A stretch of DNA of 64,000 nt from Chitinophagaceae bacterium (GTDB taxonomy: Bacteria; Bacteroidota; Bacteroidia; Chitinophagales; Chitinophagaceae), in the NCBI GenBank assembly GCA_947446645.1, contig CANFHA010000014.1, positions 62,001 through 126,000 on the forward strand, written 5' to 3'. Under the pieces are notes generated by a model. That model had not been told where the DNA came from, did not search any database, and saw nothing but the letters and a program-made list of their open reading frames with translations. The first letter of the stretch is position 1. Every line of letters starts with the position of its first letter. The position numbers were made by a program, and so were the translations under genes. Positions 48,171-54,155 of the stretch are shown here, piece after piece.

Positions 48171-48413
48171 CTACTTCCAAAGCAACTTTATGATATCTTC
48201 TTTGCTCATGTTAAAGTGCACCGCTATATCTCCGACAATGGCAGAGAAAGTACCTATTTTTAACGGATCATGGTTTGGGATGGTAACATGATGCTCACCA
48301 TTCTGCATGGTGGTAAGGCGTATATGGCTTCCTACCTGCCGGGTTTCTTTATAGCCAAGCACTTTTAAAGACTTGATCAATTCAGAGGCGCTGATATCTC
48401 TTGGTAACCTCAT
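48171..48413 (-). CDS. hicA: HicA family mRNA interferase toxin
   Basis: ASELIKSLKVLGYKETRQVGSHIRLTT...HHVTIPNHDPLKIGTFSAIVGDIAVHFNMS. Confidence 0.88.
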   Translation of the reverse strand: MRLPRDISASELIKSLKVLGYKETRQVGSHIRLTTMQNGEHHVTIPNHDPLKIGTFSAIVGDIAVHFNMSKEDIIKLLWK

Positions 48414-48613
48414 GCTGCGAATACTTCGTCTTTTACCACGTGCAAACGTATAAGCCGGGCTTTATTATCAGTATAATGGCAATGCACAGCCTCTTTCACG
48501 GCTACCCTAAGGGCCTCCATAGTTTCTGCCTCGGTAAATATAGATACACCCATTCCTTTGGCAATAAACCCTCCTTCCTCACTTTCCTCAACTAAAAAAA
48601 TAACCTCGTCCAT
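48410..48613 (-). CDS. hicB: HicB-like antitoxin
   Basis: MDEVIFLVEESEEGGFIAKGMGVSIFTEAETMEALRVAVKEAVHCHYTD; overlaps the hicA start by 4 bp. Confidence 0.8.
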   Translation of the reverse strand: MDEVIFLVEESEEGGFIAKGMGVSIFTEAETMEALRVAVKEAVHCHYTDNKARLIRLHVVKDEVFAA

Positions 48614-48660
48614 TTGAGTCGCTTTTTACAAATTTAACGCATTTATTTAAATCGAAGAGT

Positions 48661-49077: not shown

Positions 49078-49099
49078 TGGCATATTCTGAGGTTCCGCC

Positions 49100-49124
49100 G
49101 TTGTTGGTGTTCTTCACCAATAAC
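49100..49124 (-). repeat. REP-like hairpin A (inverted relative to B and C)
   Basis: Minus strand: GTTATTGGTG-AAGAA-CACCAACAAC. Confidence 0.75.
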
Positions 49125-49151
49125 GCTCGCTCCGGGCAGGCAACACTGGGG

Positions 49152-49670
49152 CTACATAAGGCAAGAGGTCAATATGCCGCGAGCATCTACGGCTAGAGAA
49201 TAATAAGATGCACTGCTGTATTTATAGTCTTCGGGCTGCGAGCATAGTGCGGCTTTCACGGGATTATTGTGAATGTAGTCGAGTTTCTGTTTCATCACGT
49301 CTTCACTCCATAACTCAACTGTTAATGGATTTCTTTCCCATACCTGATGTTTGCGATCCCTGGCACCAACGTAGAGCTCATTCAGTAAATCGGGGTTATT
49401 ATTCCTGAGGTCTTTCAACACCATCTGTGCTGTGAATTTCAGAAAGTCGCGCTGCACATCTTCACGTTTGTGCGGGTTAATGATGTGCCACAGAATATGA
49501 AGATGGTTGCTCATGATCACATAGGCATGTAGGTGTATCCTCTTATTTGCTACAAGGTATTGCAGAGTATCGAGGATAATGTCCTTGTAGCGGTCATTGG
49601 CAAGCAGGTGTTTCCACTCCAGTATGGTGGCGGTGAAGAAGTGAAGTTCATATTTCTTGCCCGATGGCAT
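49152..49670 (-). mobile_element. REP-associated tyrosine transposase (RAYT, Y1/IS200-like)
   Basis: MPSGKKYELHFFTATILEWKHLL...IHLHAYVIMSNHLHILWHI (HxH with hydrophobic spacing)...LDYIHNNPVKAALCSQPEDYKYSSASYY; flanked by REP-like hairpins. Confidence 0.88.
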
Positions 49671-49736
49671 GTGGCATCTTTTAGAACTAAGATACGTTGC
49701 ATTTGAGAATTCCGGGGTGAGTAGTCCTACGCGAGT

Positions 49737-49761
49737 GATGTTGGTGAAGAACACCAACATC
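49737..49761 (+). repeat. REP-like hairpin C
   Basis: GATGTTGGTG-AAGAA-CACCAACATC. Confidence 0.75.
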
Positions 49762-49799
49762 GGCGGGAAACAAAGTTGCATTACGTGTCCTGCGGGAGC

Positions 49800-49824
49800 G
49801 TTGTTGGTGAAGAACACCAACAAC
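49800..49824 (+). repeat. REP-like hairpin B
   Basis: GTTGTTGGTG-AAGAA-CACCAACAAC. Confidence 0.75.
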
Positions 49825-50124: not shown

Positions 50125-50556
50125 CTAATTCCCGGCCGGGTCAAATTCCACGATCCATTCAATGCCATATTTGTCCCTGAACATTGCGGCATAAGTGCCC
50201 CAGGGGCTGTCGCCGATGGGACCTTCAACAGTTCCGCCTGCAGACAATCCATTAAAGATCCTGTCTGCTTCTTCGCGGCTTTCTGTACTTACTGCTATTT
50301 TAGACCTATTCTCGTTTTCGTTTACCCGGCCCATAAATGCGGGCACATCATTGGCTATTAACGCATTGTTTTTGCCAATGGGCAAAGCAATGTACATTAT
50401 CTTATCCGTCTCATTTGCCGGAACCTGAGATTCATCGCTTGCAAGGTCGCTGAAACGAACAACTTTTGTGAACGCTCCGCCAAAAACTGATTTGTAAAAA
50501 GTGAATGCCTCTTCGGCATTGCCATTGAAATTGATCCAGGGGTTGATTGCTTTCAT
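50125..50556 (-). CDS. VOC family protein (PhnB-like)
   Basis: MKAINPWINFNGNAEEAFTFYKSVFGGAF...DSPWGTYAAMFRDKYGIEWIVEFD. Confidence 0.9.
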   Translation of the reverse strand: MKAINPWINFNGNAEEAFTFYKSVFGGAFTKVVRFSDLASDESQVPANETDKIMYIALPIGKNNALIANDVPAFMGRVNENENRSKIAVSTESREEADRIFNGLSAGGTVEGPIGDSPWGTYAAMFRDKYGIEWIVEFDPAGN

Positions 50557-50669: not shown

Positions 50670-53600
50670 TTACTTCTCAACAACAAAACTTATCACTTTA
50701 CGCTTAGCCCCGTTGCCTACGTTCAGCATATACAATCCATTAGATAAGTTTTCGGGAAGCACGAGCTGCTCATTTATAACGCCACCTGCAGCTATTGTAG
50801 TCGCAGTGTACACTACCTGGCCAACTGAATTTATGATCTCGTAATTTACCAAAGCATCAATAGCTGCGCCTGCTGTACCTTTTACAAAGAACATACCCCT
50901 GTTAGGATTTGGAAACAGACCGATGCTCATTGGTATTGATGGTACACTCACCCTCTCCCCTGTTGTGGATTCTGCAGCAGATATAGTTTCATCACTTACC
51001 AGTTCACCCGCGGTTATGTCGTCCGACTGAGTAGTGTTAACATCCGGTGCTGTACTGCCATTACCAGTACGACCGTGTGGTGTAGCGACGCTAACAGCTT
51101 TGCCCACTGTGGCACTGCAGCCGAAACTATTAGTAACCATATAGGTGATATATACGCTGCCGGATGTGGCTGCTGCACTCACTACGCCGGTGCCGCTGCC
51201 CACACTAATAATAGCCGCATTGCTGCTGGTCCACAGGCCCCCGCTTGTGGTATCAGACAGTGTTGCCGGAACGCTATACGTTACAACGGAAGCGCCCATA
51301 ATGGCTGCAACAGCTGGAAGCGCATTCACTGTTACTACTGACGTAGTGATACAGGTGTTAGCAAGTAAATAAGTGATCACTGAGGTACCGGCAAAAATTC
51401 CGGTTACCCTGCCTGAAGCAGATACCGTAGCTATACCGGTATTGCTGCTGGACCAGGATATTCCCGCTACCGCATCAGACAAAAATGTTCTGCTGCCTGC
51501 ACAAACACTAAGTGTTCCGCTTATAGGCGCGGGTGCCTGGTTTACTGTTATAGGTGCAGCCCTGAAGCAACCGGTACCTAAGGTGTAACTAACTATTGCA
51601 GAACCAGCAGATATACCATTGACAATGCCCGCATTATCTACCGATGCGTAAGCGTTTGCACTGCTCCAGCTACCACCGGCAGTAGCGCTGTTCAGTGCTA
51701 TTGTAGCTGCGGTACACACCTTTACAGGGCCGGTTATAGCGGCGGGATTGGGGTTTACCGTGATCATTACCGATGCCCTGCAGCCGGTAGCTACCATGGT
51801 ATAGTACACAGGAACCATACCGGCATTGGTAGCGCTCACTATGCCACCAGTACCTACTGTAGCAGTAGACGGAATACCACTGCTCCATACACCACCGGGG
51901 GTAATGTCTGAAAGTACTGTTGTTGCGCCCTGGCATACCGCGGCACTGCCCATAATGGCGGCAGGTGTGGGATACACCGTTACTATAGCTGTGGCAGGTA
52001 AGCCGGAAAGCGTATAGCTGAGCGTAGCAGTGCCAGCGGTTAAGCCAGTCACCACCCCGGTGGCAGATACGGTAGCCACACTCAGCGGACTGATGCTCCA
52101 GGTGCCACCTGCAACTGCGTTGAAGAACGGAGCAGTATTACCTGTACATAAATAGAAGTAATAACCGGTGATAGAACCGGGAGTGCCATTTACTGAATTT
52201 ACAGTAATTGTTTTTGTAGCCAGGGCGTTGCTGCATACACTTGTTATTGAGTAGCTGATGGTACTAGTGCCGGGCATTATACCTGTTACCACACCATTGC
52301 TGCCTATAGTTACATTACTGTTGCTTGAAGTCCACACACCACCCGCTACAGAATCAGATAGGTTAATTGCCGACCCCACATTTACAACTGACAACCCGGT
52401 GATGGCACCCACAGACACCGCATTCACGGTTACGGCCATTGAAGCCACCGCTGCGCCACAGCCGTTGGTAACGATATAAGATATTGTTGCCGTACCAGCG
52501 GCGATACCGGTAATATTCCCAAACGCGTCTATGGACACATCAGGTGTTGCGCTCCACGATCCGCCGACAGCCGCGTCGGTGAGGTGAACAGAAGTGCCCA
52601 CACATACTACCGGGTTGCCCGTTATTACACCTGCGTTGGCCAGCGGGTCTATGGTTGTAACTTCAGTAGCGCTCACCGTGCCACAGCTATTTGATAGAGA
52701 ATAGGAGATCATAGCTGTGCCCGCGGTTATGCCGGTCACATTTCCCAGCCCGTCAGTAGCCGCGTTTCCAGTGGCGCTCCATACACCACCTGGCACAGTA
52801 GCCGTGAAGAGAGCGGTTGTAGCCGCACACAGCCTCGCGGCTCCGCTTATAGTTCCGGGATCAGGAAGTGCATTCACTGTTACCATAAAACTCGTGTATG
52901 CCGTTCCGCAACTGTTGACTACGGTATATGAGATAGATGCCGTTCCTGCAGTCAGTCCGGTTATATTACCTGATCCGTCCACGGAAGCGCCTCCGGTTGC
53001 GCCCCATGCGCCGCCTGCCGATGCATCTGATAAAGATTGTGTGGCACCCACACAAATTGTGGCGCTTCCACTAATGGTGCCGGCATAAGGCTGTGGATTC
53101 ACGGTTAACGCATGTGTGGTTACAACCGTACCGCAACTGTTGGTTACCGCATAGGTAATGAGAGTTGTTCCGGCACTCATGCCAGTTATATTGCCGATGC
53201 TATCCACAGTTGCTACGCTTCCGTTCGTGGAGCTCCAAACGCCACCGCTGGCAGTATCTGATAATGCTGCGGTAGCTGCCACACAAATAGTATTTTGTCC
53301 TGTTATCGTGCCGGCTACTGCTGTCACGTCCACGGTGATTACCCTTGTTGTCTTACAGTTATTGGTGGCGGCATAAGAGATGGTAGTAGTGCCGCCTGCA
53401 CGGCCGGTAAGAACACCCGACGTACTGATAGATCCTATAGCAGGAGTAATGGAGTACCAGGTGCCGCCTCCCGTTGCCTCGGTAAGTATAATACTGGTAC
53501 CGGTACATACTGCAGCCGGGCCACCAATAGGAGCAGGGGTAGCATTTACGGTTAACACCTTTGTGGCCCTGCACCCGCTTACTGTATATGTAAAATAGAT

Positions 53601-54155
53601 CGGCACAACGCCGGGATTATTGGCTGTAACAATTCCCGTAGAACCCACGGTTGCAGTGGAAGGGATACCGCTGCTCCATACCCCGCCTGCTCCCGTGTCA
53701 GACAAGTTCATCTCAGAACTGAGGCATATGCTGCCGGGACCAGCAATGGGATCAGGGGTTGCGAAAACCGTCACGACTATAGATGCAGATGAACCGCCTA
53801 CGGTATAACTGAGGGTAGCTGTGCCTGCGCTAAGGCCTGTTACTACTCCGACCGACGACACACTCGCAACGCTTGCTGTGGCCGGACTAATGCTCCAAAC
53901 ACCTCCAGGCGCATCATCAAAAAATGGTGCGGTAGCACCCTTGCACATGTAAAAATAATAACCGGTAATGCCGGGCACGGGTGCCGCAAAAGCATTGCCG
54001 GTACCAAGTGTGAGCAATGTAAAAATTGTTGCGACAAATAGTGTCTTAGAAAGCATATTAAGCCGTAATGCACAAGTCTGTGGGTGCTTCTTTGTAGAAT
54101 TTTTCATAGACATCATTTTTAGGTTTTTATTTTTCCTAAATCCTATCAATAACAA
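50670..54155 (-). CDS. Large surface adhesin-like protein: about 13 Ig-like (Big_2-type) repeats plus T9SS type A sorting domain
   Basis: Repeated ...CxG...LSD...GGVWSS...GxVTGxxAGTxxISYxVxxxCG...TVN modules; C-term IGLFPNPNRGMFFVKG...LSNGLYMLNVGNGAKRKVISFVVEK. Confidence 0.9.
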   Translation of the reverse strand: MLLIGFRKNKNLKMMSMKNSTKKHPQTCALRLNMLSKTLFVATIFTLLTLGTGNAFAAPVPGITGYYFYMCKGATAPFFDDAPGGVWSISPATASVASVSSVGVVTGLSAGTATLSYTVGGSSASIVVTVFATPDPIAGPGSICLSSEMNLSDTGAGGVWSSGIPSTATVGSTGIVTANNPGVVPIYFTYTVSGCRATKVLTVNATPAPIGGPAAVCTGTSIILTEATGGGTWYSITPAIGSISTSGVLTGRAGGTTTISYAATNNCKTTRVITVDVTAVAGTITGQNTICVAATAALSDTASGGVWSSTNGSVATVDSIGNITGMSAGTTLITYAVTNSCGTVVTTHALTVNPQPYAGTISGSATICVGATQSLSDASAGGAWGATGGASVDGSGNITGLTAGTASISYTVVNSCGTAYTSFMVTVNALPDPGTISGAARLCAATTALFTATVPGGVWSATGNAATDGLGNVTGITAGTAMISYSLSNSCGTVSATEVTTIDPLANAGVITGNPVVCVGTSVHLTDAAVGGSWSATPDVSIDAFGNITGIAAGTATISYIVTNGCGAAVASMAVTVNAVSVGAITGLSVVNVGSAINLSDSVAGGVWTSSNSNVTIGSNGVVTGIMPGTSTISYSITSVCSNALATKTITVNSVNGTPGSITGYYFYLCTGNTAPFFNAVAGGTWSISPLSVATVSATGVVTGLTAGTATLSYTLSGLPATAIVTVYPTPAAIMGSAAVCQGATTVLSDITPGGVWSSGIPSTATVGTGGIVSATNAGMVPVYYTMVATGCRASVMITVNPNPAAITGPVKVCTAATIALNSATAGGSWSSANAYASVDNAGIVNGISAGSAIVSYTLGTGCFRAAPITVNQAPAPISGTLSVCAGSRTFLSDAVAGISWSSSNTGIATVSASGRVTGIFAGTSVITYLLANTCITTSVVTVNALPAVAAIMGASVVTYSVPATLSDTTSGGLWTSSNAAIISVGSGTGVVSAAATSGSVYITYMVTNSFGCSATVGKAVSVATPHGRTGNGSTAPDVNTTQSDDITAGELVSDETISAAESTTGERVSVPSIPMSIGLFPNPNRGMFFVKGTAGAAIDALVNYEIINSVGQVVYTATTIAAGGVINEQLVLPENLSNGLYMLNVGNGAKRKVISFVVEK

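Follow-up and report, generated by a model that had tools for sequence, protein, structure and literature searches.

A probable REPtron in a Chitinophagaceae genome: a RAYT gene flanked by inverted hairpins of a small intergenic family

RAYT proteins and their REP hairpins are an already known kind of system, of which the Bacteroidota branch is little described. The TnpA-REP enzyme binds a single-stranded hairpin and cuts at a nearby CT, after which the 5' end is held on the tyrosine and passed to another 3' end (PMC8266576). According to the abstract of PMC2817692, REP families usually comprise more than 100 copies per genome. In Quentin et al. 2018 (PMC6006769), subclass 2.6 (Bertels group 5) groups TnpA-Y1 proteins mostly from Bacteroidetes. 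Its hairpins are termed 'atypical', lack GT[AG]G and also occur elsewhere in the genome, and its proteins carry the motifs NH[LIV]H, YIH[QN]NP, SS and WQ with a median HUH-Tyr spacing of 82.

The locus described here lies in a 64,000-nucleotide stretch of a Chitinophagaceae genome (the window). With a probability of roughly 0.88, we consider it a REPtron, i.e., a RAYT gene flanked by its cognate REPs, inverted upstream and direct downstream, with a small family of the same REPs scattered between genes.

The RAYT gene and its flanking hairpins

The features of the locus are as follows; the limits of the extended elements come from the flank consensus of 65 copies with a five-base loop.

49093..49137, minus strand: extended REP element A, with flanks 5' GCCCGGAGCGAGC and 3' GGCGGAA
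49100..49124, minus strand: REP hairpin A, GTTATTGGTG-AAGAA-CACCAACAAC, with one A-C mismatch, about 28 nt past the RAYT stop codon
49152..49670, minus strand: RAYT gene (Y1/HUH transposase, TnpA-REP), 172 aa, ATG start, identified by NF047646, its invariant residues and a profile match to 4ER8
49724..49769, plus strand: extended REP element C, GTCCTACGCGAGT ... CGGCGGGAA
49737..49761, plus strand: REP hairpin C, GATGTTGGTG-AAGAA-CACCAACATC, inverted relative to A, about 66 nt before the RAYT start codon
49787..49831, plus strand: extended REP element B, GTCCTGCGGGAGC ... CGGCGGAA
49800..49824, plus strand: REP hairpin B, GTTGTTGGTG-AAGAA-CACCAACAAC, before the RAYT start codon
49903..49929, minus strand: tentatively, a probable decayed fourth REP copy, seen by eye and missed by the automated searches

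The protein passes the NCBIfam equivalog model for REP_Tyr_transpos (NF047646) with 84.2 bits against a cut-off of 80, while Pfam Y1_Tnp stays below its threshold (13.7 versus 23). Its HUH motif is N55-H56-L57-H58 and the catalytic Tyr132 lies within YIHNNP; H56, H58, Y132, N136 and P137 are present without exception in an alignment of 14 RAYT sequences from relatives. Among solved structures, the top match for a profile of these 14 is E. coli TnpA-REP (PDB 4ER8, E 4e-9); IS200/IS605-type structures rank far lower (E 0.04-0.13). The transposase assignment made in the initial annotation is thus upheld by both the family model and the structural match. A PHROGs search gave no match, a related-locus search of genome contigs returned one distant, partial match, and the AlphaFold model predicted from the single sequence (pLDDT 46) was unusable. 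A longer ORF of 223 aa, which extends across hairpins B and C, was rejected as an artefact of a TTG start (49823): it renders both hairpins as LVFFTN, a stretch that is not conserved in relatives, and the conserved protein begins at the ATG at 49670, with relatives aligning from residue 1 (MPSGKKY) onward.

All three 25-nt hairpins lie around the gene where they had first been placed. Their 17-nt core, TTGGTGAAGAACACCAA, has three matches in the window at up to three mismatches, compared to a shuffle mean of 0.14, and hairpin B folds as single-stranded DNA with a z-score of -4.2. The paired change between B and C is truly compensatory (T/A to A/T at stem position 2). The imperfection reported for A is real as well, but it is of the G-T type only on the plus strand and reads A-C on the strand as written. 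The putative fourth copy, GTGAAGAATACTAACAGCGGCCG, is identical to the family form GTGAAGAACACCAACAGCGGCGG at 20 of 23 positions and has lost its 5' arm.

The neighbouring genes are of other kinds. A HicA toxin gene (48171-48413, minus strand; PF07927, E 6.5e-12) is immediately preceded by a probable HicB-like ORF (about 48414-48616), and the two would form a HicAB toxin-antitoxin pair close to the RAYT gene. On the other side lie a Glyoxalase/VOC-family protein (50125-50556, minus strand; PF00903) and a 1161-aa Ig-like-repeat protein (50670-54155, minus strand) with an apparent C-terminal sorting domain, judged by eye.

An intergenic hairpin family whose stems follow the enzyme

The hairpin is not confined to the window. 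The 4.71-Mb host genome holds ten copies of the core at up to two mismatches and none of a reversed-pattern control. The lack of further genomic copies, which had been named as a result that would refute the reading, is therefore not what is observed. Beyond the window, host copies occupy intergenic positions or, on contig C11, one short, doubtful ORF; away from the RAYT gene, most are singlets. Contig C21 carries a cluster of three copies, one of them decayed, with no RAYT within the 8.5 kb taken around them. The intergenic bias that had been proposed as a check is pronounced: among 71 distinct copies from the host and its genus, all away from RAYT genes, eight fall inside ORFs of 100 aa or more, whereas 43 would do so on the basis of coverage (P 7e-18). 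The hairpins on either side of the RAYT gene hence have further copies in the intergenic DNA of its own genome.

The same hairpin class is present in 19 of the 41 genomes searched, and the form GTTGGTGN4-5CACCAAC reaches 8-45 copies in several relatives. The maximum of 45 occurs in genome G003, even though that assembly is only 82% complete. Hairpins can also occur without the gene, since G022, G023 and G024 contain 10, 16 and 10 of them and no RAYT of the window clade was found in these genomes; the ten GTTGGTG hairpins of G024 (L140-L146), which is 98% complete, are therefore orphan REPs. Across 25 genomes of the genus, at least one hairpin is found in all nine with a window-clade RAYT versus eight of the 16 without (P 0.02), and the association fades when at least three hairpins are required (P 0.09). 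Because such orphans exist, the association between hairpin and gene presence is weak.

Conservation extends beyond the 25-nt hairpin to an element of about 46 nt, consisting of approximately GTCCTGCGCGAG, a stem-loop of 10-11 bp and GGCGGAA. The unpaired flanks are conserved, the 3' GGCGGAA side better than the 5' side near GTCCTGCGCGAG. The consensus at the hairpin foot reads CGAG on one side and GGCGG on the opposite one, and the canonical 5' GT[AG]G is absent. Among 65 distinct copies from across one genus, all with a five-base loop, stem pairs 2, 3 and 4, counted outward from the TTGGTG/CACCAA core, all change significantly in a compensatory fashion. Pair 3 occurs as T-A (n = 33), C-G (n = 21), A-T (n = 4) and G-C (n = 4), so that it is Watson-Crick in 62 of 65 copies, against a mean of 26.5 and a maximum of 40 in shuffles that ignore the relatedness of the copies. 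The host genome by itself contains the stem variants TTG/CAA, ATG/CAT, CAG/CTG and TAG/CTA. Four pair types at one position, together with the stem changes within a single genome, make a chance origin unlikely and bear out the earlier suggestion that structure is under selection. Pair 5 shows no significant covariation in this set, and the common stem is therefore taken as 10 bp; a stem of 11-12 bp was rejected as unsupported across copies, though several, A and B included, can form it.

Stem sequence also follows RAYT phylogeny, the comparison that had been suggested at the outset. The Mantel correlation is 0.666, a value reached in 0 of 5000 permutations, and stem similarity climbs with protein identity from 0.45 at 25-35% to 0.96 above 60%. 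Hand-labelled stem classes require nine changes on the RAYT tree (minimum of 15 in 500 shuffles), and automatic labels on a larger tree require 12 (at least 16 in shuffles). A second RAYT clade in the same genus has unrelated hairpins (GTAGTC, CTCGTT and others), while in G311, from outside the class of the host, RAYTs of about 53% identity keep the TTGGTG/CACCAA hairpin and the GGCG tail. The hairpin thus follows the enzyme and not the host, each RAYT lineage having its own REP class.

These data bear on whether the hairpins could instead act at the RNA level, serving adjacent genes as terminators, attenuators or mRNA stabilisers, with their position beside a transposase gene being incidental. 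Their intergenic position and covarying stems would suit such a role, as covariation is blind to the difference between RNA and single-stranded DNA. Yet neither arm is followed by a T run, the 3' side being GGCGGAA, an Rfam search of the region gave no meaningful match, and the stem class both tracks the RAYT clade and recurs in inverted orientation on the two sides of the gene. We regard a purely RNA-level role as very unlikely.

Recurrent layout of RAYT loci

Related RAYT loci repeat the layout seen in the window, with an inverted hairpin upstream and a direct one downstream. In the host, its relatives and the phylum at large, 59 RAYT-type loci were compared. A matched inverted pair is present in 34 of them, compared to 7.5% of combinations of flanks taken from separate loci, so the BIME-like arrangement first noticed in the window recurs well beyond it. 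The loop of the downstream hairpin is purine-rich in 30 of these 34. Where neighbouring hairpins are inverted to each other, 16 of 22 face (-,+), as do the two that flank the RAYT gene, and most spacers measure 63-75 nt. Such pairs fit REPINs as shortened versions of the unit that carries the gene.

Some loci are more elaborate. In G003, an alternating array of hairpins with loop AAAA surrounds a RAYT gene, its spacers alternating between 57 and 67 nt (L090, G003:C78:5500-9000). G002 contains two RAYT units in tandem, separated by about 1.5 kb and each with inverted and direct hairpins of its own (L089, G002:C5:624000-629000), which points to duplication of the whole unit. In G007, a 337-bp unit made of the last 66 RAYT codons and a TTGGCG hairpin stands in tandem beside an intact RAYT gene (L094, G007:C51:33500-39500).

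A self-mobile IS200/IS605-like insertion sequence, with the subterminal hairpins as transposon ends, would account for an enzyme of the same superfamily, for hairpins that bracket the gene and for the tandem duplication in G002. It sits poorly, however, with the single copy of the gene in the host genome, with solo hairpins outnumbering genes, with the weak matches to IS200-type structures and with a tyrosine motif, YIHNNP, of the YxxxNP type (class 2) instead of the YxxxQ of IS200/IS605 class 1.1; we hold it to be highly improbable. That an inverted repeat surrounds one functionally unlinked gene by chance or local duplication, as the mere three good copies in the window might suggest, is refuted by the ten genomic copies with an empty control, the 19 genomes with the same class and the compensatory stem changes.

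Proposed action and relation to known systems

Read as a REPtron, the locus may work by analogy with TnpA-REP. The RAYT would recognise, in single-stranded form and probably at replication forks, a hairpin with a loop-proximal GYG/CRC stem, a purine-rich loop of 4-5 nt and unpaired flanks. Cutting would take place near the hairpin foot through a 5'-phosphotyrosine link and be followed by strand joining, and such events could in the past have spread the REPs, singly and as inverted pairs, over intergenic sites as a small family. The frequent CCT about 8 nt ahead of the stem in the copies of the genus, and the AG at the foot, as in GTAG, fit this cutting model. With about ten copies, the family is small, so its present activity is probably low.

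A further proposal is that the window clade forms a separate RAYT subclass in which the CGAG foot replaces GTAG as a guide and selects C|T upstream of it, or C|A if the foot ends in TG. Among the loop-5 copies, an xxAG foot goes with CT in 20 cases and with CA in three, and an xxTG foot with CA in nine and with CT in one. The link is absent among copies with a GCT spacer and the copies are not independent of lineage, so it is a weak lead and the proposal doubtful. Since conservation is stronger at the GGCGG foot, the enzyme may act on the opposite strand. To our knowledge, RAYT biochemistry comes from a small number of proteobacterial enzymes whose REPs carry GTAG. The Bacteroidota clade, with its many natural enzyme-hairpin pairs in which stems and protein change together, is a comparison set for RAYT recognition without GTAG.

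Like E. coli TnpA-REP (subclass 2.2, PDB 4ER8), the system combines a related HUH/Tyr enzyme, inverted REP pairs and a REP-flanked gene; unlike the GTAG REPs of E. coli, its hairpins lack GTAG and a conserved bulge in the stem, and number only about ten. It shares inverted REP doublets of near-fixed spacing with the REPINs of Pseudomonas fluorescens SBW25 (PMC3116915), as the 63-69-nt spacers in G003 and G023 illustrate, whereas host-genome copies away from the gene are mostly singlets. Its low copy number also departs from the more than 100 copies given as usual in PMC2817692. A literature search, the supplementary tables of PMC6006769 aside, returned no paper describing this hairpin sequence. 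The closest resemblance is to subclass 2.6 as described in PMC6006769: a Bacteroidota host, NHLH, YIHNNP, a tail SS motif and a low-copy gene flanked by genome-recurrent hairpins without GT[AG]G. The idea of a distinct Bacteroidetes subtype hence pointed in the right direction, but the kind is not new, as that article had already set subclass 2.6 apart. The window clade differs from it in a HUH-Tyr spacing of 73 instead of 82, in WE instead of WQ in its closest members and in stems that end in GTG/CAC or GCG/CGC at the loop, whereas the second RAYT clade of the genus, with spacings mostly of 80-82, agrees with the published median. Since 82 is a median and WQ a consensus, the 73 and WE of the window clade do not exclude membership. 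Judged by shared motifs and these differences in sequence, the window clade looks like a sister branch or a divergent member of subclass 2.6; we classify the system simply as a RAYT and its REPs, without claiming membership of subclass 2.6.
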